A stretch of 10,444 bases of DNA from the NCBI GenBank assembly GCA_903831545.1, contig CAIKYI010000013.1, positions 1 through 10,444 of the forward strand, read 5' to 3'. The translations under genes and the position numbers were made by a program. Positions 1,511 through 10,444 of the stretch are shown one piece after another. Each line of letters opens with the position of its first letter. The first letter of the stretch is position 1. The notes beneath the pieces were generated by a model that was not told the origin of the DNA, did no database searches, and saw nothing but the letters and a program-made list of their open reading frames with translations. The stretch comes from an uncultured Methylobacter sp. Its GTDB lineage: Bacteria; Pseudomonadota; Gammaproteobacteria; Methylococcales; Methylomonadaceae.

Positions 1511-2110
1511 AAACGTTTCCGATGCTTCCTTCCTGTTGTCATCGACATAGAAACTGCCGGATTTAATCCCAAGAAAAATGCGCTACTCGAAATTGCAGCG
1601 GTGATTGTCGAGCTTAACCGCAACAACGAAATGGAAATTACCGAACGTTATACCACACATGTCATTCCGTTTAAAAACTCCGAGCTGGATGAATCCGCCC
1701 TTAAGTTTAACGGCATAGATCCTCATCATCCTTTTCGCATGGCTATTGACGAAAAGGACGCGCTGAACATGCTGTTCAAACCCATCAAAGACGCCGTCAA
1801 GCGAAACAACTGTACCCGAGCCATTCTGGTTGGACATAACCCTGCTTTTGACATTGGCTTTCTTAATGCCGCCATTCAAAGAACCCAGATAAAACGGAGC
1901 CCTTTTCATCCGTTCAGCACTTTCGATACTGCCACATTGGGCGGACTGGTCTATCAACAAACGGTGCTTTCAAAAATTGCCCAGGCGGCGGGTTTGGAGT
2001 GGGACAACAATAAAGCCCATGCTGCGCTTTATGACGCTGAAAAAACGGCAGAGCTGTTTTGCATAATTGTTAATCGCTGGCGCGCCTTAACTGATGTCAA
2101 TGCAATGTAA
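1511..2110 (+). CDS. rnt: Ribonuclease T (DEDD exonuclease) with disrupted 5' end; possible pseudogene
   Basis: RNase T is a homodimeric 3'-5' exoribonuclease of the DnaQ/DEDDh superfamily that trims tRNA CCA ends and matures the 3' ends of 5S, 23S and other stable RNAs. The reading frame from 1511 to the TAA at 2108-2110 is unbroken and aligns with E. coli RNase T throughout. It opens KRFRCFLPVVIDIETAGFN (E. coli RFRGFYPVVIDVETAGFN) and continues with FNGIDP, a HNPAFD motif, KRSPFHPFSTFDTA and HAALYDAEKTAELF. All acidic and His catalytic positions are present: D and E of DIE (codons at 1544 and 1550), D at 1850, H at 2018 and D at 2033. The oddity is at the start. An in-frame TAA (1508-1510) directly precedes KRFR, and no ATG, GTG or TTG follows until GTG at 1601. 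Starting there would remove the DIE motif and could not give an active enzyme. The usual Gly of RFRG is Cys. This is therefore a recent nonsense mutation, a sequencing error or an unusual initiation. Confidence 0.85.
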   Translation, partial: KRFRCFLPVVIDIETAGFNPKKNALLEIAAVIVELNRNNEMEITERYTTHVIPFKNSELDESALKFNGIDPHHPFRMAIDEKDALNMLFKPIKDAVKRNNCTRAILVGHNPAFDIGFLNAAIQRTQIKRSPFHPFSTFDTATLGGLVYQQTVLSKIAQAAGLEWDNNKAHAALYDAEKTAELFCIIVNRWRALTDVNAM

Positions 2111-2184: not shown

Positions 2185-2988
2185 TTACTTATTCACCATC
2201 CTGGTATCGAGCAAATTAACCTGAACATCCATCTTCATTAAGATACAACTCAAGCCAAACTGATGGAATATTGAAACATCCGCTGCATCGCGACCAAATG
2301 CAATCACCACCCTTCCCCCGCGAAACTCGTTCTGGGTAGGGTCAAAGGCATACCATTGACCTCCGACATAAACCTCAAACCAGGCATGCAAGTCCATGGG
2401 CTCAAGTTGATATAAATAACCTACCACCAATCGGGAAGGAATACTGATACTCCTGCTTAAGGCAATGGCGAGTTGGGCAAGGTCTCGGCACACGCCAAAA
2501 CCACGATTATTAACCTCGATCGCCGATAATGGCGAATCGCTGGAACCGGGAATGTACTTGATGGTCTGACGCACCCAGTCAGTAATTTTCGCAACCTGAT
2601 CGTAACCAGGTGTAGCATCGGCGACTATGTCCCGGGCAAGGTCGCCGAAACGGTCCGATTCACAATAGCGACTGGGTAATAAATAAGGCAAAACTTCGGC
2701 AGGCAGATTTTGTATTTCAACAAAAGCTGCCCCGGATACGCTGATGATGTTTTTTGGCGTGATAGCCTCATAACAGGTATAGATATTAAATTCACCTGGA
2801 GGCGCAACCAGACGTTGACAATAGTTGCCTAAATTATCTTTACTTTCAATAATATTAACTACAGGTTCAACGCTGTAGCTTGATTGAGTGATCTTTTGAT
2901 GCTCATTGCTGAAGGGACGCAACATTAAAATTAACGCTGTTGGGTCTTCTATCTGAAAATGAAGATCACAACTGACTTGCAACTTCAT
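2185..2988 (-). CDS. Transglutaminase-like (papain-fold) protein
   Basis: A 267-residue protein with a bacterial transglutaminase-like core. The catalytic triad is readable: Cys167 in GFGVCRDLAQLA, His201 in MDLHAWFEVYV and Asp216 in WYAFDPTQN. The aromatic spacing and the order Cys-His-Asp are typical of this superfamily. Residues 1-100 form a beta-rich N-terminal region common in these proteins. There is no signal peptide or membrane segment, so the protein should be cytosolic. Bacterial members mostly act as peptidases or amidases rather than protein cross-linkers, and the substrate cannot be told from sequence. The gene lies 31 bases downstream of the ParA-like ATPase gene on the same strand and is probably cotranscribed with it. 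I see no obvious Shine-Dalgarno sequence before its ATG, which may mean translational coupling or a weak site. Confidence 0.85.
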   Translation of the reverse strand: MKLQVSCDLHFQIEDPTALILMLRPFSNEHQKITQSSYSVEPVVNIIESKDNLGNYCQRLVAPPGEFNIYTCYEAITPKNIISVSGAAFVEIQNLPAEVLPYLLPSRYCESDRFGDLARDIVADATPGYDQVAKITDWVRQTIKYIPGSSDSPLSAIEVNNRGFGVCRDLAQLAIALSRSISIPSRLVVGYLYQLEPMDLHAWFEVYVGGQWYAFDPTQNEFRGGRVVIAFGRDAADVSIFHQFGLSCILMKMDVQVNLLDTRMVNK

Positions 2989-3019
2989 AAATTATTATAG
3001 GCGTTGGTAGTTGTTAGCA

Positions 3020-3715
3020 TTAAATCCCTACTGCCTGAATCTGGCCATAAGCATGTCGCAGCCACATTTTTACACGTTGCAGCTCCAGTAAACCCAAGGC
3101 ATTCAGCGTTTCTGTATCCTTATTCATTGCCGCCCAAAAACTGGAACTGTTAGCATCAATTTTAGTCATCACTGGCGCATGCAGGCGCTTTAAAGTAATC
3201 ACTTTGGCATTGAGTGCTAAAGCACGATTTTTAACGCCGGAAGACTCCAAAATATTAAAGCTCTCGTCACGAAGCTGGTTCTGCACCAAAATATAGTTCA
3301 AACGGGAACCATATTGATCGAGCAATTTATCCAGCAAGTCTACGCAATCCTTTCCGGAATCCATCACATTCCAGTAATACAGGGCAATACCCAGTTCTTC
3401 CGCCAATTCCAGCACGCCCGATTCATCCAGCCATTTTGCCAGCGGGTGATGCGTTTGTGCAGCAAGGTCAACCAAAATGCGATGCTGCGGATTCTCGGCA
3501 GCCGTTTCCATGATGGCGTCCAGGCTTTGGTAATTATCAATAACAGTGGGCGAGGCATAATCAGCATAAAAGCGAAGTAAGGAACCGTGCGAACGGTCGG
3601 TATCAAACCCGACAAACGGTATTTTATTGCCTATCATATATTGAGCCAGTACCCTTGCCACAACGGATTTACCCACTCCGCCTTTTTCGCCACCGATAAG
3701 ATGAATTGTACTCAT
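3020..3715 (-). CDS. ParA/MinD-family P-loop ATPase
   Basis: A 231-residue SIMIBI-class ATPase. It has the deviant Walker A motif GEKGGVGKS at residues 9-17 with the signature lysine K11, the A'-like FDTD at 37-40 and a Walker B-like ILVDLAAQ at 80-87 with Asp83. These features define the ParA/MinD/CobQ group, whose members position DNA, protein machines or polar structures by ATP-driven dimerisation on DNA or membrane. There is no ParB gene or parS-like site nearby, so this is unlikely to be the chromosome-partition ParA; it looks like an orphan member. Residues 90-220 do not show a motif I can assign. The ATG at 3713-3715 has a well-placed GGAG (plus 3721-3724). The downstream neighbour is the transglutaminase-like gene, with a 31-base gap. 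Its cargo is unknown. Confidence 0.85.
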   Translation of the reverse strand: MSTIHLIGGEKGGVGKSVVARVLAQYMIGNKIPFVGFDTDRSHGSLLRFYADYASPTVIDNYQSLDAIMETAAENPQHRILVDLAAQTHHPLAKWLDESGVLELAEELGIALYYWNVMDSGKDCVDLLDKLLDQYGSRLNYILVQNQLRDESFNILESSGVKNRALALNAKVITLKRLHAPVMTKIDANSSSFWAAMNKDTETLNALGLLELQRVKMWLRHAYGQIQAVGI

Positions 3716-4005: not shown

Positions 4006-6180
4006 TTATTTAAGAAACAACATTTCCTGATAAGTTGGGAAAGGCCACAATTCATCAGCGACTTCGCCTTCAAGTCCATCGGCGAAGCTGCGAACTTCAT
4101 CCATTAAAGGACGAACAGTTTTTGCACAGAACTGCAAATGTTCTTCAATCGTTGCAAAATCATGCTGGCTGATAGCCGCAGAAAGCTTGGCCACTGATGC
4201 CATCATTGCTGTAAGCAGCTCGGTTACCTGCACCAACGGCTCATTGGAAAGCTCTACTTCGTTGGCTTTAAGACTGTTTATCGTAACAGAAAGATCTGAC
4301 AGGTATTTAACCACGGCCGGATATATTCCGGTTTTAGCCATGCTGATCACCAGCTTTGCTTCCACTTCAATTGCCAGAATATATTGTTCGGCATAAATTT
4401 CAAAGCGACTGGCCAGTTCAACCGGTGATAACACGCCAAGCTTTTCAAATAACGCTTCAATGTAGGGTTCTTTTAAAACAGGCAACGCATCGGCTGCGGT
4501 TCTAAGATTCGCCAATCCGCGTTCTTCAACCGCCATTTTATGCCATTCGGCTGAATATCCGTTACCACCAAAGATAACCGCACCATGTTGATCGATGATT
4601 TCCTTCAAGGTATCAAGTATTGCCGTATCAAGACTGGCGCCCTTGTTCAAAGAGCTTTCCAAAGTATCGGCAACCCAGTTCAATGAATCTGCAAGTAGCG
4701 TATTCATGGCAACCAAAGGACCTGCCACCGATTGCCCTGAACCCACCGCGCGAAACTCAAAACGGTTGCCGGTAAAGGCAAAAGGCGAGGTGCGGTTTCT
4801 GTCACCGGAATCTTTATTAAATACCGGCAGCGTATTGATACCCAGATCCATAACCCCCGCGTTTAGCGAACCGGTAATCTTGCCGTTACTGATTTGCTCA
4901 AATACATTATCGAGTTGCGATCCCAGGTAAACCGACATAATTGCCGGCGGCGCTTCATTGGCACCCAGGCGATGATCATTGCTTGCCGTAGCGATAGCGG
5001 CACGCAACAGCGGACCATATTTGTGAACACCACGAATAACCGCGCCGCAAAACAGAAGAAATTGGGTATTTGAATGTGGGGTATGTCCCGGATCCAGTAA
5101 ATTGCCCTGAGTCGAATTACCGACAGACCAGTTGACATGCTTGCCTGAGCCGTTAATTCCTTTAAACGGTTTTTCGTGTAACAAACACACCAGACCATGC
5201 TTTTTGGCGGTGTTTTTTAACACTGTCATCAACAGTTGCTGGTGATCTGTGGCAACGTTTGCCGATTCAAAAAAGGGTGCAATCTCGAATTGTCCGGGCG
5301 CTACTTCGTTATGACGGGTCTTGGCCGGAATTCCCAGGCGATATAATTGTTCTTCAGCATCCTGCATAAAAACCTGGACACGTTCAGGTATTGCACCAAA
5401 ATAATGATCATCAAATTGCTGGCCTTTAGCCGCAGATGCGCCAAACAGTGTTCTGCCAGCCAGCAGCAGATCCGGACGGCTGTTGACAAAATTCGCGTCA
5501 ACCAGAAAATACTCTTGCTCTGCGCCACAACTGGAATTAACCGGCGCAATATCGGTATGACCGAGCAATGACAAAACCCTATGCGCCGCTTTATCCATTG
5601 CGGCATTTGCACGTAACAACGGGGTCTTCTTATCCAGCGCTTCTCCAGTCCAGGAAACAAAAACGGTAGGAATACACAGTGTTGCCCCATTGTCAGTAGT
5701 CATGATATAGGCAGGGCTAGTGACATCCCACGCAGTATAACCACGCGCTTCAAAAGTTGATCTAATCCCGCCATTGGGGAACGACGAACCATCAGGTTCG
5801 CCCTGTACCAGCACCTTGCCGCTGAATTCAGAAATAACCGAGCCATCGCTTTGCACGGAAATAAAACTATCGTGTTTCTCTGCGGTAGCATTGGTCAAAG
5901 GAAAAAACACATGCGCATAATACAAAGCACCCTTGGACATAGCCCAGTCTTTCATGGCCAAAGCCACCACATCGGCAACTGAAACATCGAGCTGTGCACT
6001 GGCTTCAATGGTTTTCTTTACCGATTTGAAGATATCTTTTGGCAAGCATTCCTTCATCTTACTCAGCGTAAACACATCATTTGCCCATAGGCTATTAAGT
6101 GATTCCGGTGATTTGGCAGGCATAGGCCGACGATTGGTGATATTTTGAATCGCTTGTAAGCGTGCAGCATTTCCAGACAT
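4006..6180 (-). CDS. glnN: Type III glutamine synthetase (GSIII)
   Basis: GSIII makes glutamine from glutamate, ammonium and ATP, the entry step of ammonium assimilation. At 724 residues this matches the long GSIII form (about 700-730) and not GSI (about 470). The GSIII-specific N-terminal block [21 protein letters not shown] (residues 137-157) is present. The catalytic core follows: GAEQEYFL (219-226), [11 protein letters not shown] (289-299), [10 protein letters not shown] (343-352), then [10 protein letters not shown] (404-413) and [18 protein letters not shown] (460-477), which carry the metal and ATP/glutamate ligands. The GSI adenylylation loop is not seen, so control by GlnE-type adenylylation is not expected. 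The ATG at 6178-6180 has a strong AGGGGA Shine-Dalgarno sequence (plus 6186-6191). A sigma-54-type promoter and NtrC-like sites upstream suggest induction under nitrogen limitation. GSIII is best known in Bacteroidetes and cyanobacteria and usually coexists with a GSI in proteobacteria; a glnA would be elsewhere. The gene is followed directly by repeat copy B. Confidence 0.95.
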
Positions 6181-6219: not shown

Positions 6220-6235
6220 AGCAATAATCGAACCA
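6220..6235 (-). promoter_or_regulatory. Sigma-54 -24/-12 promoter of glnN
   Basis: The minus strand reads TGGTTC-GATTA-TTGCT. It has the invariant GG and GC separated by exactly 10 bases and the full TTGCT of the -12 box; the -24 box lacks the central CA of TGGCAC. The predicted transcription start is near 6209, about 30 bases before the glnN ATG with the Shine-Dalgarno sequence between. The match, position and gene function agree. Confidence 0.7.
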
Positions 6236-6319: not shown

Positions 6320-6367
6320 TCGTGCGATTTTAGTGCGAAAAATAGATTTTTAGTTCAGTTTGGTGCA
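6320..6367 (-). promoter_or_regulatory. NtrC-like enhancer half-sites upstream of glnN
   Basis: On the minus strand there is TTGCACCA (plus 6360-6367) and, exactly 30 bases nearer the gene, CGCACTA (plus 6331-6337); a further CGCACGA lies at plus 6320-6326. TGCACCA and TGCACTA are the left halves of the classic NtrC sites, and E. coli glnAp2 has the same order at about the same spacing (32 bases). The right halves are degenerate. The distance from the predicted start is about 120-160 bases, typical for an enhancer. Binding is an inference. Confidence 0.5.
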
Positions 6368-6486: not shown

Positions 6487-7329
6487 CTATAATCTGGCTA
6501 GCAACTCCGCTTTCTTGGAACTGTATTCAGTCTCCGTCAAAATACCTTTATCTTTAAGATTGGCCAGTTTCTCGATAGCACCGAAAATATCAGCTTCTTT
6601 CCCTGTATCGTATTCAGATTTTGATTGAAAGTCAGGCGCCGGTTGCGCTTGAACCGGCGTTTGCACAGGCACATTATCGATAGAAATAAGCGGGAGCGTA
6701 TTAACATCAACCAGTCCGTATTGACTGGTAAATGTAATTGAACCGCCTACCGATTGTTGCTGGGAGAAGCCACCAATCTGATGATCCAGCGTGTCGTATA
6801 ATTTTACCTGCCCGGCGACATCAATAGCCAGGCGTCGAATGGTCGCAAAGTAGGCATATCGCAGATTATTTTGTGAGCCGGTGCTGTTGGGAAACTGCAA
6901 GCCTGCCGGCCACCAGTTACCCGAACTACCGGCAGGTGGTGGCACAAACAAGCTGACGGGTCCATTTGGCCCTGAACTGTTTTGTTGCTGACTGCCGCCA
7001 AAGTTAGCCTGTTGCTGGTTACCCTGACTCTGAGACTGAAAACTGCCGCTTTGAATAAGGTCGGGTTGATTGGCGATAAGATTTGAGAGCTCTTGACACA
7101 AGCCGGCGACGCTGTTTTTTAAACCGTTATTAAACATATCTCCCAGCATAATCATGCCGCCTTTCATCCATTGTCCGGAGCCGCCAAATTCAGGATGATT
7201 AAACTGTGCCATGGAACCATTACCGTTGATTACCGACAGTAGCATGCTAAATACGGCATCAGAACTAAAATTATAGCGCTGTGCAATATTGTTGATAATT
7301 TGCTGGCCTTCCGGCGTAAGCTGTTTCAT
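6487..7329 (-). CDS. SHOCT-domain protein with conserved N-terminal helical region
   Basis: A 280-residue protein of unknown function. The C-terminus (246-280, ADIFGAIEKLANLKDKGIL then TETEYSSKKAELLARL) is a typical SHOCT domain, a short helical hairpin found at the ends of many unrelated proteins and thought to mediate oligomerisation or interaction. The N-terminal 1-87 (LTPEGQQIINNIAQRY, then GNGSMAQFNHPEFGGSGQWMKGGM) is a conserved module that I recall from other gammaproteobacterial SHOCT proteins. Between them lies a low-complexity Gln/Ser/Gly-rich linker (about 92-122) and a proline/aromatic segment (129-146). There is no signal peptide or membrane helix, so it is probably cytosolic. 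The Shine-Dalgarno sequence is weak (GGA, 11 bases before the ATG). The gene is divergent from the phosphorylase-kinase-like gene and shares a 473-base upstream region with it; a possible sigma-54 element and NtrC-like sites lie in that region. Confidence 0.85.
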   Translation of the reverse strand: MKQLTPEGQQIINNIAQRYNFSSDAVFSMLLSVINGNGSMAQFNHPEFGGSGQWMKGGMIMLGDMFNNGLKNSVAGLCQELSNLIANQPDLIQSGSFQSQSQGNQQQANFGGSQQQNSSGPNGPVSLFVPPPAGSSGNWWPAGLQFPNSTGSQNNLRYAYFATIRRLAIDVAGQVKLYDTLDHQIGGFSQQQSVGGSITFTSQYGLVDVNTLPLISIDNVPVQTPVQAQPAPDFQSKSEYDTGKEADIFGAIEKLANLKDKGILTETEYSSKKAELLARL

Positions 7330-7456: not shown

Positions 7457-7510
7457 TACCTGTTGCAACTGACTCTAAACAATCACCACAGTAGCAAATC
7501 CCGCTCTTTT

Positions 7511-7548
7511 ATAGTGCGCAAAGCAAAATTTTGTCTCAACTTGGTGCG
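7511..7548 (-). promoter_or_regulatory. NtrC-like half-site pair in the SHOCT / kinase-like divergent region
   Basis: On the minus strand CGCACCAA (plus 7541-7548) and GCGCACTA (plus 7512-7519) lie exactly 30 bases apart, in the same order and orientation as the pair upstream of glnN. Aligning 7510-7551 with 6329-6370 without gaps gives 29 identities in 42 bases. The pair is about 80-120 bases upstream of the predicted SHOCT start and 210-250 upstream of the predicted kinase-like start, so as an enhancer it could serve both. Confidence 0.45.
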
Positions 7549-7626
7549 AGTGATCCTGCGGTTTTTTAGCAATCAACAGCGTGCCTTTCCTCTTGGTGTC
7601 CGGGGGTTATCCTGAAAAATACAATT

Positions 7627-7732: not shown

Positions 7733-7748
7733 TGGCACAGCATCTGCT
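7733..7748 (+). promoter_or_regulatory. Sigma-54 -24/-12 promoter of the phosphorylase-kinase-like gene
   Basis: The sequence TGGCAC-AGCAT-CTGCT has a perfect -24 box, the invariant GG (7734-7735) and GC (7746-7747) separated by exactly 10 bases, and a TGCT -12 core. The predicted start is near 7759, giving a leader of about 44 bases to the ATG at 7803. This is the best promoter match in the window. Confidence 0.75.
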
Positions 7749-7802
7749 TACTGTTTCTTATAACTCTCAGGTTAATACTGTAAAACTGGCACATTGCACA
7801 CC

Positions 7803-10444
7803 ATGAAATTGAATGATACCGACGATAAACTTGACGCTTATTACCATCAGGTGCAAGACATCATTCTCAATAAACAGGATTGGGTAAGTGGTTTACTACC
7901 TGCCAGTACCGCTGTAACTGCCCATGGCAATTATACGGATGCCTGGGTAAGAGATAATGTCTACAGTATTTTGGCAGCCTGGGGATTGGCACTGGCTTAC
8001 CGCCGTGCCGATGAAAATCAGGGACGAACTTATCTGTTGGAACAAAGTGTCGTCAAGTTAATGCGGGGACTCTTGACTGCGATGATGAGGCAGGCGCCCA
8101 AAGTCGAAAAATTCAAGCAGTCCCAGAATCCACTGGACTCGTTACATGCCAAATATGATACCAAATCAGGCGCTGTGGTTGTCGGTGATAATGAATGGGG
8201 GCATTTACAGCTGGATGCCACCTCTTTATTTTTATTGATGCTTGCACAAATGACTGCCTCGGGTTTGCGTATTGTTTTTACCATTGATGAAGTCAATTTT
8301 GTACAAAATCTGGTTCACTATATCAGCCGGACATACCGCACCCCGGACTACGGCATCTGGGAGCGTGGCCACAAAATCAATCATGGCCTTGCAGAATTAA
8401 ACGCCAGTTCAATTGGAATGGCAAAAGCGGCCCTTGAAGCGCTGTCCGGTTTTAATCTGTTTGGCAAAGAGGGCGGGCAAGCATCCGTTGTTCATGTCAT
8501 TAGTGACGATATTGCCAGAACCCGAATCACCCTGGAATCTCTTTTACCCCGAGAATCAATTTCCAAAGAGACCGATTCAGCCGTACTCAGCATCACTGGC
8601 TTCCCTGCTTTCGCAGTTGACAATGAGGTTCTTAGAAGAAAAACAGAAGCCATTATTTGCGTAAAGCTGGAAGGCCTCTATGGTTGCAAACGCTTCTTGC
8701 TGGACGGCCACCAAACGGCAATTGAAGATAGTGAACGTCTGCATTACGATCCCCATGAATTAAAACAATTTATGGATATTGAATGTGAATGGCCGTTGTT
8801 TTTCACCTATTTACTGCTTAACAATTTGTTCACAGACGACAAAGCGACTGCTTTACGCTATCGCACCAAACTGGAGAGTTTACTCGTTGACCACAATGGC
8901 CAGCGATTATTGCCAGAACTTTATAGTGTTCCTTTAAATTCGATAGCCGCAGAAAAAGCTAACCCACATAGTCAGTCGCGAGTTCCGAATGAAAATATAC
9001 CTTTGGTTTGGGCTCAAAGTCTTTTTATATTGGGCTGCCTTATCCAGGATGGTTTACTCGAACTTGACGACATAGATCCATTAGGGCGTCACAAAATAGT
9101 CAAACAAACCCCCGATTGCAAACTGCAAATTCAGTTATTGGCTCAAGATGAAGCCGTACAAAGCCAATTATTGGACTATGGAATTGGCACGGAAACACTT
9201 GCGGAAATCGCCCCTTTTCAGATCCGGGAAGCCCATGAACTGGCCGCAGCCTATACGCATGTAGGCAGAAATGACCGTATTGGCTTAACGGGCAGACCCT
9301 TTAGACAACTGCGGACATTGGCAACCTCAAAAATCTATGTCCTGGCAGGCGAGCGGTTACTATTTTCACCGCAATGCCTTAATCAAAAGGGTTTCTATCT
9401 GGCAATGGACAACCGTCTGCTGATACAACGCTTACGCCTTGAATTGTCCTATATTTATAAATATTGGGACAGACCGGGCAACCCTTTGGTTATTATGACC
9501 ATCAAAAACAATATGCTGGATAGTCATCATCGCGATATTCTGATTGAATTTATCAAAGAACTGCAGGAAGGTTCAACCCAAGGCATAACCTTGCAACTTG
9601 GCACCCTTCTGAATTTCGCAGAAACCTCAAGCCACGAAAAAATCAACTATTTGCATGATTTTGAGTTCTCTAAAGCCTCTTGGGAAGAAGCCGAGCGACC
9701 TTTCTTTCATGTATTGGCCACAAACAGTGCTTTACCGACACCCTTGGATACCCATACCCTGACAGAATGGGAAATCAGCACCGATCAGATACTGATCGAA
9801 CAACTTGAAACCAATGCCAATCTTTATGCGCAACTGGAAGCATCAAGCATACTGAGTCTTCGACACAACCTGGATTATGACACCGGATTAACAGCGCCCG
9901 ATGGCACAGTGGGAAGCGTACGAAATTTACTGGAAGAGATTTATCAAAGAGCCGGTGATCAGCATGTCTGGTATGTAGTTAGATGTAGCGCCGGCTTGCT
10001 GGGCAAATATGACATCAATCTGGAACAGGCCGCCACCGAAATACTGGTTCGGCAACACGCACTCACTCTAGGCCGCGCATACAGCAGTAAAGCAACCTTA
10101 ACGCGCCCGGCCGATTCCTCGGAAATTTTACAAACCATACGCGACTTTAACAATGACGCCAGTGAACACATTATTATTCAGGAATTGATCATTTATCTGG
10201 GTATGTTAATCAAGTCTAACCAGGAATTGTTTGCTGACATGTACACGGTTCGCGTAGGACATATCCTTGATCTACTCATCGTCAGACAGCAACGCGAATC
10301 GGCTTGTAGCACACTGGATCAGGCTTTCGATGAAATCCTTTCCTTAACGCCCTTTCAATTGGCAAAAAAGGTAAAGGAGACACTGGAAGATTATTGCAAC
10401 ACAGAAGAACAACTGGATTTGGCCGAAACACTGCACTATGATGG
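7803..10444 (+). CDS. Phosphorylase kinase alpha/beta-subunit-like protein (GH15 fold), 3' end outside window
   Basis: The frame is open from ATG 7803 to the window edge, giving 880 residues without a stop. It aligns from the first residues with the animal phosphorylase b kinase alpha subunit: LDAYYHQVQ..GLLPAS (10-35), DAWVRDNVYSILAAWGLALAYR (46-67), EQSVVKLMRGLL, LDSLHAKYDTKSGAVVVGD, WGHLQLDATS, the WERG motif with Glu187, ELNASSIGMAKAALEAL (198-214), IECEWPLF around 326-333, LPELYSVP, and TGRPFRQL with ATSKIY around 496. Similarity continues past the glucoamylase-like GH15 domain into the C-terminal alpha/beta region (SVRNLLEEIYQRAG from about 705, then QHALTLGRA). In animals these subunits control the gamma kinase that activates glycogen phosphorylase. 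Bacteria lack the gamma subunit, so here the protein may bind or cleave an alpha-glucan or regulate glycogen enzymes; the role is unknown. The start agrees with the homology, but no Shine-Dalgarno sequence is visible. Confidence 0.92.
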   Translation, partial: MKLNDTDDKLDAYYHQVQDIILNKQDWVSGLLPASTAVTAHGNYTDAWVRDNVYSILAAWGLALAYRRADENQGRTYLLEQSVVKLMRGLLTAMMRQAPKVEKFKQSQNPLDSLHAKYDTKSGAVVVGDNEWGHLQLDATSLFLLMLAQMTASGLRIVFTIDEVNFVQNLVHYISRTYRTPDYGIWERGHKINHGLAELNASSIGMAKAALEALSGFNLFGKEGGQASVVHVISDDIARTRITLESLLPRESISKETDSAVLSITGFPAFAVDNEVLRRKTEAIICVKLEGLYGCKRFLLDGHQTAIEDSERLHYDPHELKQFMDIECEWPLFFTYLLLNNLFTDDKATALRYRTKLESLLVDHNGQRLLPELYSVPLNSIAAEKANPHSQSRVPNENIPLVWAQSLFILGCLIQDGLLELDDIDPLGRHKIVKQTPDCKLQIQLLAQDEAVQSQLLDYGIGTETLAEIAPFQIREAHELAAAYTHVGRNDRIGLTGRPFRQLRTLATSKIYVLAGERLLFSPQCLNQKGFYLAMDNRLLIQRLRLELSYIYKYWDRPGNPLVIMTIKNNMLDSHHRDILIEFIKELQEGSTQGITLQLGTLLNFAETSSHEKINYLHDFEFSKASWEEAERPFFHVLATNSALPTPLDTHTLTEWEISTDQILIEQLETNANLYAQLEASSILSLRHNLDYDTGLTAPDGTVGSVRNLLEEIYQRAGDQHVWYVVRCSAGLLGKYDINLEQAATEILVRQHALTLGRAYSSKATLTRPADSSEILQTIRDFNNDASEHIIIQELIIYLGMLIKSNQELFADMYTVRVGHILDLLIVRQQRESACSTLDQAFDEILSLTPFQLAKKVKETLEDYCNTEEQLDLAETLHYD

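Follow-up and report, generated by a model that had tools for sequence, protein, structure and literature searches.

The window described here is a 10,444-nucleotide stretch of DNA from an uncultured Methylobacter species, namely positions 1 to 10444 of contig 13 of a 3.64 Mb assembly (805 contigs, 73% complete). Its end cuts a gene for a protein that resembles the alpha and beta subunits of animal phosphorylase kinase (PhK). We analyzed this gene, its promoter region and the genes that accompany it in relatives. The features of the gene are as follows.

7803..10444, forward strand: gene for the PhK alpha/beta-like GH15 protein, N-terminal 880 residues, by homology and Pfam; truncated by the contig end
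7733..7748, forward strand: sigma-54 (-24/-12) element TGGCACAGCATCTGCT, 70 bp before the ATG; best match in the window, one mismatch to TGGCACN5TTGCW
7503..7517, forward strand: upstream site 1, GCTCTTTTATAGTGC, NtrC-like, one mismatch to GCACY-N5-RGTGC
7535..7550, forward strand: upstream site 2, around TTGGTGC (7541-7547); 30 bp from site 1, GTGC to GTGC
7950..7955, forward strand: codons of Arg50-Asp51, the glucose-binding pair of GH15 by motif equivalence; invariant in 101/101 and 241/241 sequences
8361..8363, forward strand: codon of Glu187, predicted general acid by sequence comparison (human PhK alpha Glu185)
8916..8918, forward strand: codon of Glu372, predicted general base by sequence comparison (human PhK alpha Glu371; Lys in PhK beta)

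The reading frame 7803-10442 encodes 880 residues from the ATG at 7803, with a TTG at 7794, and meets no stop codon before the contig ends. Complete relatives mostly comprise ~1020-1100 residues, and the closest ones at the protein level belong to Methylobacter and other Methylococcaceae. In a search of solved structures, human PhK alpha aligned to residues 7-618 and 662-854 (E = 6.7e-208) and human PhK beta to residues 8-827 (E = 1.1e-160). These were the only convincing solved-structure matches by sequence, and a profile of 61 relatives returned the same two alone. Pfam assigned GH15 (PF00723, E = 3.4e-81) to residues 9-819, with the barrel fold recovered by structure comparison, and the first part of KPBB_C (45 residues) to residues 835-879. 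KPBB_C is nearly complete in the orthologue L023 (E = 1.5e-96); when this domain is taken in full from L023, the homology to the PhK alpha/beta family spans the full length. The sequence-only reading, made before these comparisons, had proposed both a likeness to PhK alpha beyond the glucoamylase-like domain and the existence of bacterial homologues. The first is borne out by the two PhK alpha alignments and the start of KPBB_C, the second by at least 7371 relatives at E<=1e-30 among 7995 scored, of which the named ones are usually called GH15 or phosphorylase kinase alpha/beta. As a family it is therefore not new, and its distribution is patchy: 20 of the 61 genomes in the draw of relatives were positive, the window's own genome included, and KPBB_C occurred in 15/370 genomes of the class draw and 8/397 of the phylum draw (own genome in both). 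Among 14 control genomes it was found in Synechococcus elongatus only. The N-terminus of the window protein appeared cytosolic in a crude check. A weak trehalase profile match was not accepted.

The bacterial protein shares with PhK alpha/beta (PDB 8jfk and related) the whole-length architecture, 31-38% identity in Foldseek alignments and the catalytic Glu pair of alpha. It differs in the segment between the first and second matched stretch, which is shorter in the bacterial profile than in human alpha (587 to 631 versus 592 to 751), and in its neighbours, which are often glucokinase or glg genes. Positive genomes in the relatives draw carry one copy each, and therefore no alpha/beta pair. A C-terminal CaaX farnesylation box is described as a feature of the animal subunits (PMC10978961), whereas a cysteine at -4 was present in 0/91 bacterial relatives longer than 1030 residues. 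The GH15 isomaltose glucohydrolase of Kribbella flavida (5Z3A) is unlike the window protein, with a 371-residue chain, 17% identity and a conserved Ala after the base that by motif reads Asn here. The GH15 glucoamylases and glucodextranase (1dog, 1ug9, 1lf6) presumably lack the PhK-type D2-D5 parts, and pairwise BLASTP of the window protein against the GH15 protein of L251 was not significant.

Both the general acid and the general base Glu were kept in every sequence of two alignment sets (101/101 and 241/241). The Arg50-Asp51 pair was matched by motif to Arg542/Asp543 of dextran dextrinase, given as its glucose-binding pair in the cited part of PMC12446779.

The genes next to the PhK-like gene were examined in relatives. 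Loci were taken one per species-level genome, yet they are akin, and the counts are not independent events. There were 80 close loci, including L098 and L099, which are titled only 'proteobacterium'; L082, whose match is cut at a contig edge, was left out of the orthologue counts. A glucokinase gene follows directly on the same strand in 66 of 79 close loci; seven others are cut by a contig end and six lack it, two of these six having <700 bp of room. The gap or overlap ranges from -17 to +13 bp in 57 of the 65 measured, and of the remaining eight, five are long overlaps, probably due to misassigned starts, while the other three are separated by 67, 107 and 576 bp. The downstream protein of L028 was identified as glucokinase by both PF02685 and TIGR00749. 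In L039, one of the loci without a downstream glucokinase, a hairpin followed by a T run was seen by eye between the sigma-54 match and the PhK-like gene. Among 20 distant loci (L117-L129 and L138-L144; L130, a Methylotuvimicrobium repeat of L100, excluded), five have an adjacent glucokinase (L122, L123, L124, L126 and L127, the last three from one genus). Glycogen genes adjoin others, in the order GH15-glgB-glgX in L142, with the same gene sizes and order in L143, and glgB-glgX-malQ-GH15 in L140. The annotated neighbours at L117, L118, L119, L121, L139 and L141 have no link to glucan. Where the sequence-only reading had advised searching downstream of the window for glycogen genes, the answer comes from relatives: mostly glucokinase in close loci, and glgB, glgX or malQ beside the gene at some distant ones.

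By its single mismatch to TGGCACN5TTGCW, TGGCACAGCATCTGCT is the best sigma-54 match of the window, as the sequence-only reading had stated, although 92 of 200 window shuffles hold at least one match as good, and significance from the window alone was rejected. Conservation of the element was evaluated by a GG/GC core (10 bp between), a score >=9 of 11 and a position within 200 bp upstream. The set for conservation comprised the window and 78 loci with >=200 bp upstream (L068, with <200 bp, excluded). A score >=9 was found in 59/79 upstream regions, against a mean of 1.4 and a maximum of 4 in 50 shuffle sets and 59/690 for other open reading frames of the same loci; a score >=10 was reached in 43/79, against a mean of 0.26 in shuffles. 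In Methylobacter tundripaludum-like loci the element lies 104-129 bp before the match start rather than ~70. The element at 7733-7748 is credible because it is conserved before orthologues; a lack of such conservation was among the outcomes that the sequence-only reading had named as refuting its proposal. The sigma-54 DNA-binding domain (RpoN) is encoded in the window's genome.

Above the element, a recurrent pair of sites was observed, GC(A/T)C-N7-GTGC followed ~30 bp on by CAAnTTGGTGC, mostly 100-220 bp above the promoter element. We compared these sites with GCACY-N5-RGTGC, which we take to be the NtrC consensus. The pair patterns were designed after viewing these same sequences. Pairs of RGTGC 19-33 bp apart were present in 40 of 55 sigma-54 loci (window included; loci with <300 bp upstream or lacking the element excluded), 35 of them at 29-31 bp, and in 15/649 control upstreams. 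In the set of 75 loci plus the window (loci with <400 bp upstream excluded), the strict pair occurred in 29/76, against 0 in 30 shuffle sets and 1/596 controls, and a palindrome with at most one mismatch in 27/76, compared with 2.2 on average in shuffles and with 26/596 controls. The window's own pair, with its 30 bp spacing, fits the RGTGC pattern and fails the strict one. The palindrome of site 1 was not significant in the window alone (107/200 shuffles). NtrC/sigma-54 promoters such as those of glnA and glnK, whose architecture and consensus are familiar from Escherichia coli, likewise combine a -24/-12 element with paired NtrC-type sites about three helical turns apart; here, in contrast, the promoter precedes a proposed glucan/glucose operon, with the sites mostly at the 100-220 bp given above.

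The glnK genes of relatives provided a comparison. At the first P-II gene (glnK) of L242 and L238, a sigma-54 element is accompanied by two sites that carry one and two mismatches and are 30 and 32 bp apart; these pairs are similar to those of the PhK-like gene but weaker and more degenerate. The palindrome scan, which allowed at most two mismatches, gave less elsewhere: a single weak site without an element at glnK of L241 (G019), nothing at three second P-II genes, and a single site, again without a sigma-54 element, upstream of glnA in both L241 and L242. The comparison is a modest control because single sites with at most two mismatches also occur in 174/596 control upstreams, and the strict pair pattern was found at 1 of 30 P-II loci. 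A whole-genome scan for the loose pair exceeded its reversed control in three genomes (G000, 11 versus 2; G001, 10 versus 3; G032, 8 versus 1). As a definition of a regulon it was rejected, with hits about equal to the reversed control in G018 (7 versus 6) and G019 (4 versus 5), and the hits being unannotated.

NtrC itself is encoded in the window's genome (726.6 bits, cut-off 558.6). The activator might instead be a different sigma-54 activator that recognizes a comparable site containing GTGC, an alternative that concerns the regulation only. The genomes hold many NtrC-profile matches, most through shared domains only, and the left halves of the sites are degenerate relative to our assumed consensus, which leaves room for such a protein. 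We consider it unlikely in view of the two glnK upstreams, where the same palindrome is paired above a sigma-54 element, and of a nearby glutamine synthetase gene with similar elements, described by these features.

4006..6180, reverse strand: type III glutamine synthetase (GSIII) gene (Pfam GSIII_N, Gln-synt_C, Gln-synt_C-ter), a probable co-regulated neighbour
6220..6235, reverse strand: sigma-54 element TGGTTCGATTATTGCT, 55 bp before the glutamine synthetase ATG; a similar element occurs in other GSIII upstreams
6330..6366, forward strand: second enhancer-like pair, TTAGTGC...TTGGTGC, found by pattern; upstream of the glutamine synthetase gene and pointing away from it

The upstream regions of seven near-full-length GSIII genes were compared, window included (L040, with a split reading frame, excluded), and all seven carry a similar element at -55 to -63. 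In five loci (L061, L062, L069, L077 and L101) the GSIII and PhK-like genes are adjacent and divergent, ~430-550 bp apart, with an outward sigma-54 element on each gene and RGTGC sites between; the PhK-side score is 9 in L061 and L062. Only L061 has the RGTGC sites 30 bp apart; the distance is 23 bp in three of the loci (L069, L077, L101) and 42 bp in L062. In the window, a gene of 280 residues separates the two, and each has its own site pair. The link to nitrogen that the sequence-only reading had drawn from sigma-54 is supported by the conserved element, the paired sites, the likeness to glnK, the NtrC and RpoN genes and the nearby GSIII gene with its element.

Based on these observations, we propose that the PhK-like gene and the glucokinase gene form a two-gene operon activated by NtrC and sigma-54, in which a cytosolic GH15/PhK-like glucohydrolase would free glucose and glucokinase would capture it; we lean toward this account as somewhat better than an even proposition. 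When nitrogen is short, phosphorylated NtrC would occupy the paired sites ~200 bp upstream of the promoter and activate RNA polymerase-sigma-54 at 7733-7748. The GSIII gene would be switched on alongside, and in some relatives one set of sites might serve both genes. The PhK-like protein would then hydrolyze non-reducing-end alpha-glucosidic bonds, in glycogen-derived maltodextrin or isomalto-type ends, to glucose, which glucokinase would convert to glucose 6-phosphate. Stored glucan would then have a hydrolytic exit in addition to the one through glycogen phosphorylase. The D2-D5 parts common with PhK might, as a guess, position or oligomerize the enzyme on glucan.

In a related methanotroph, glucokinase double mutants are reported to have a lowered glycogen content and raised levels of free glucose and trehalose (PMC8062543), and glucokinase has been ascribed a role in glucose reuse (PMC6406325). 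MalQ-type, GlgP and GlgX enzymes are named as sources of the free glucose in the mutants (PMC8062543); a GH15 enzyme is not named as such in the available text of PMC8062543 (glucoamylase, 0 mentions) or PMC6406325 (hydrolase, 0).

Several observations weigh against the proposed operon and its enzyme. The most serious doubt comes from human PhK alpha, which is reported to be inactive on maltose, isomaltose and glycogen despite both Glu residues (PMC10978961). The Ala after the base, described as conserved in inverting GH15 enzymes with a published contact through the main chain (PMC12446779), corresponds by eye in a motif alignment to Asn398, invariant in the 61 sequences of alignment A1, and the acid loop 185-195 of the structure model has a predicted local distance difference test (pLDDT) score <50. 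The sigma-54 score is <9 in 20/79 upstream regions, a group with many Methylomonas/Methylotuvimicrobium-type loci, and 15 of the 55 sigma-54 loci lack the site pair. No adjacent glucokinase was found in 15 of the 20 distant loci, where the room downstream is <710 bp in three and the search did not extend to other types of glucokinase (L141 and L144, with room downstream, are tallied as not adjacent). A PF02685 glucokinase is present in all five same-genus genomes that lack the PhK-like gene (G006, G008, G010, G020 and G021), and a second one lies elsewhere in G012 and G019. The pairing is not obligatory: in G018, the PhK-like gene (L095) has no adjacent glucokinase and the glucokinase lies elsewhere in the genome. 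Neither a PF02685 glucokinase nor the rest of the operon was found in the window's own 73%-complete assembly, the contig stopping inside the gene.

One alternative is a glucan-sensing scaffold free of hydrolase activity, whose GH15 pocket would bind glycogen ends and control glucokinase or glycogen phosphorylase by contact, an ancestral version of the service of PhK alpha to its kinase subunit. Pure binding has no obvious need for an acid and a base invariant in 241/241 sequences, and loss of the base is evidently tolerated, as in PhK beta; the neighbours, moreover, are often enzymes of glucan or glucose turnover. We consider the scaffold unlikely. The protein could also be a GH15 enzyme acting on another small substrate (a trehalase, isomaltose glucohydrolase or sucrose-type enzyme, on compatible solutes) and feeding glucokinase under nitrogen shortage. 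This overlaps the proposed operon in all but the substrate, and the glgB, glgX or malQ context in some distant relatives points to glycogen; we consider it unlikely. The sequence-only reading had suggested a role in deciding between glycogen storage and use. Taken as a phosphorylase-kinase-like role, this is unsupported because the Glu pair is invariant, glucokinase is next in most close loci, glgB, glgX or malQ are neighbours in some distant relatives, and the CaaX-type cysteine is absent from all 91 relatives. A true phosphorylase-kinase-like regulator, belonging to a bacterial Ser/Thr kinase with glycogen phosphorylase as its target, has in its favour that the only convincing solved relatives are PhK alpha and beta and that GlgP genes are present, but it is very improbable given the intact glycosidase residues, the missing CaaX-type cysteine and the lack of a protein kinase among annotated neighbours and clusters (other neighbours are unannotated, and no search for a PhK gamma-like kinase was made). 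A glucose-supplying enzyme is the better reading of the protein than a phosphorylase-kinase-like regulator.

Other genes recur around the locus. At least one of a circularly permuted ATP-grasp protein, an alpha-E protein, a transglutaminase, a DUF2126 amidoligase and a 251-residue protein is encoded near the PhK-like operon in 25/79 loci (window 2185-3715, reverse strand; L031, L034, L036, L055, L057, L058, L094, L098 and others). The 251-residue protein is weakly proteasome-like and perhaps Anbu. A sigma-54 match >=9 lies upstream of the ATP-grasp cluster in 13 of 21 cases, 4 of these 13 with a site pair; a larger nitrogen island around the PhK-like operon is therefore possible. A Gln-rich SHOCT-domain protein gene (window 6487-7329, reverse strand) is divergent to the PhK-like gene, directly so in 17 of the 22 members of its cluster; a site pair is found upstream in 16/22 and a sigma-54 score >=9 in only 1/22. 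A TraL-like ATPase gene (window 3020-3715, reverse strand), with no Pfam match, adjoins the transglutaminase gene in 10 places. An RNase T-like frame (window 1601-2110, forward strand) has a GTG start and matches from profile position 46, so that either the N-terminus lacks ~30 residues or translation begins at another position.

In the open-licence literature, covered by titles and the starts of abstracts, we found neither this operon nor any bacterial PhK homologue under nitrogen control described. From the promoter evidence we propose that glycogen turnover in methanotrophs is subject to a nitrogen switch. The PhK-like protein would be a further candidate source of the free glucose in glucokinase mutants. 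The broader idea is that bacterial PhK alpha/beta homologues are active glucohydrolases and that an enzyme of this kind gave rise to the animal subunits; in methanotrophs it would form with glucokinase a hydrolytic glycogen-to-glucose-6-phosphate shunt, switched on by NtrC/sigma-54 together with GSIII, and would thereby wire glycogen use directly to nitrogen status. We put this idea forward tentatively, at a little under even chances. According to the cited part of the 2024 structure report, the physiological meaning of the glucoamylase-like domains of PhK needs further investigation (PMC10978961). This question becomes testable in a single-protein system through a bacterial relative that shares the architecture, keeps the pocket intact and is paired with glucokinase in most close relatives.
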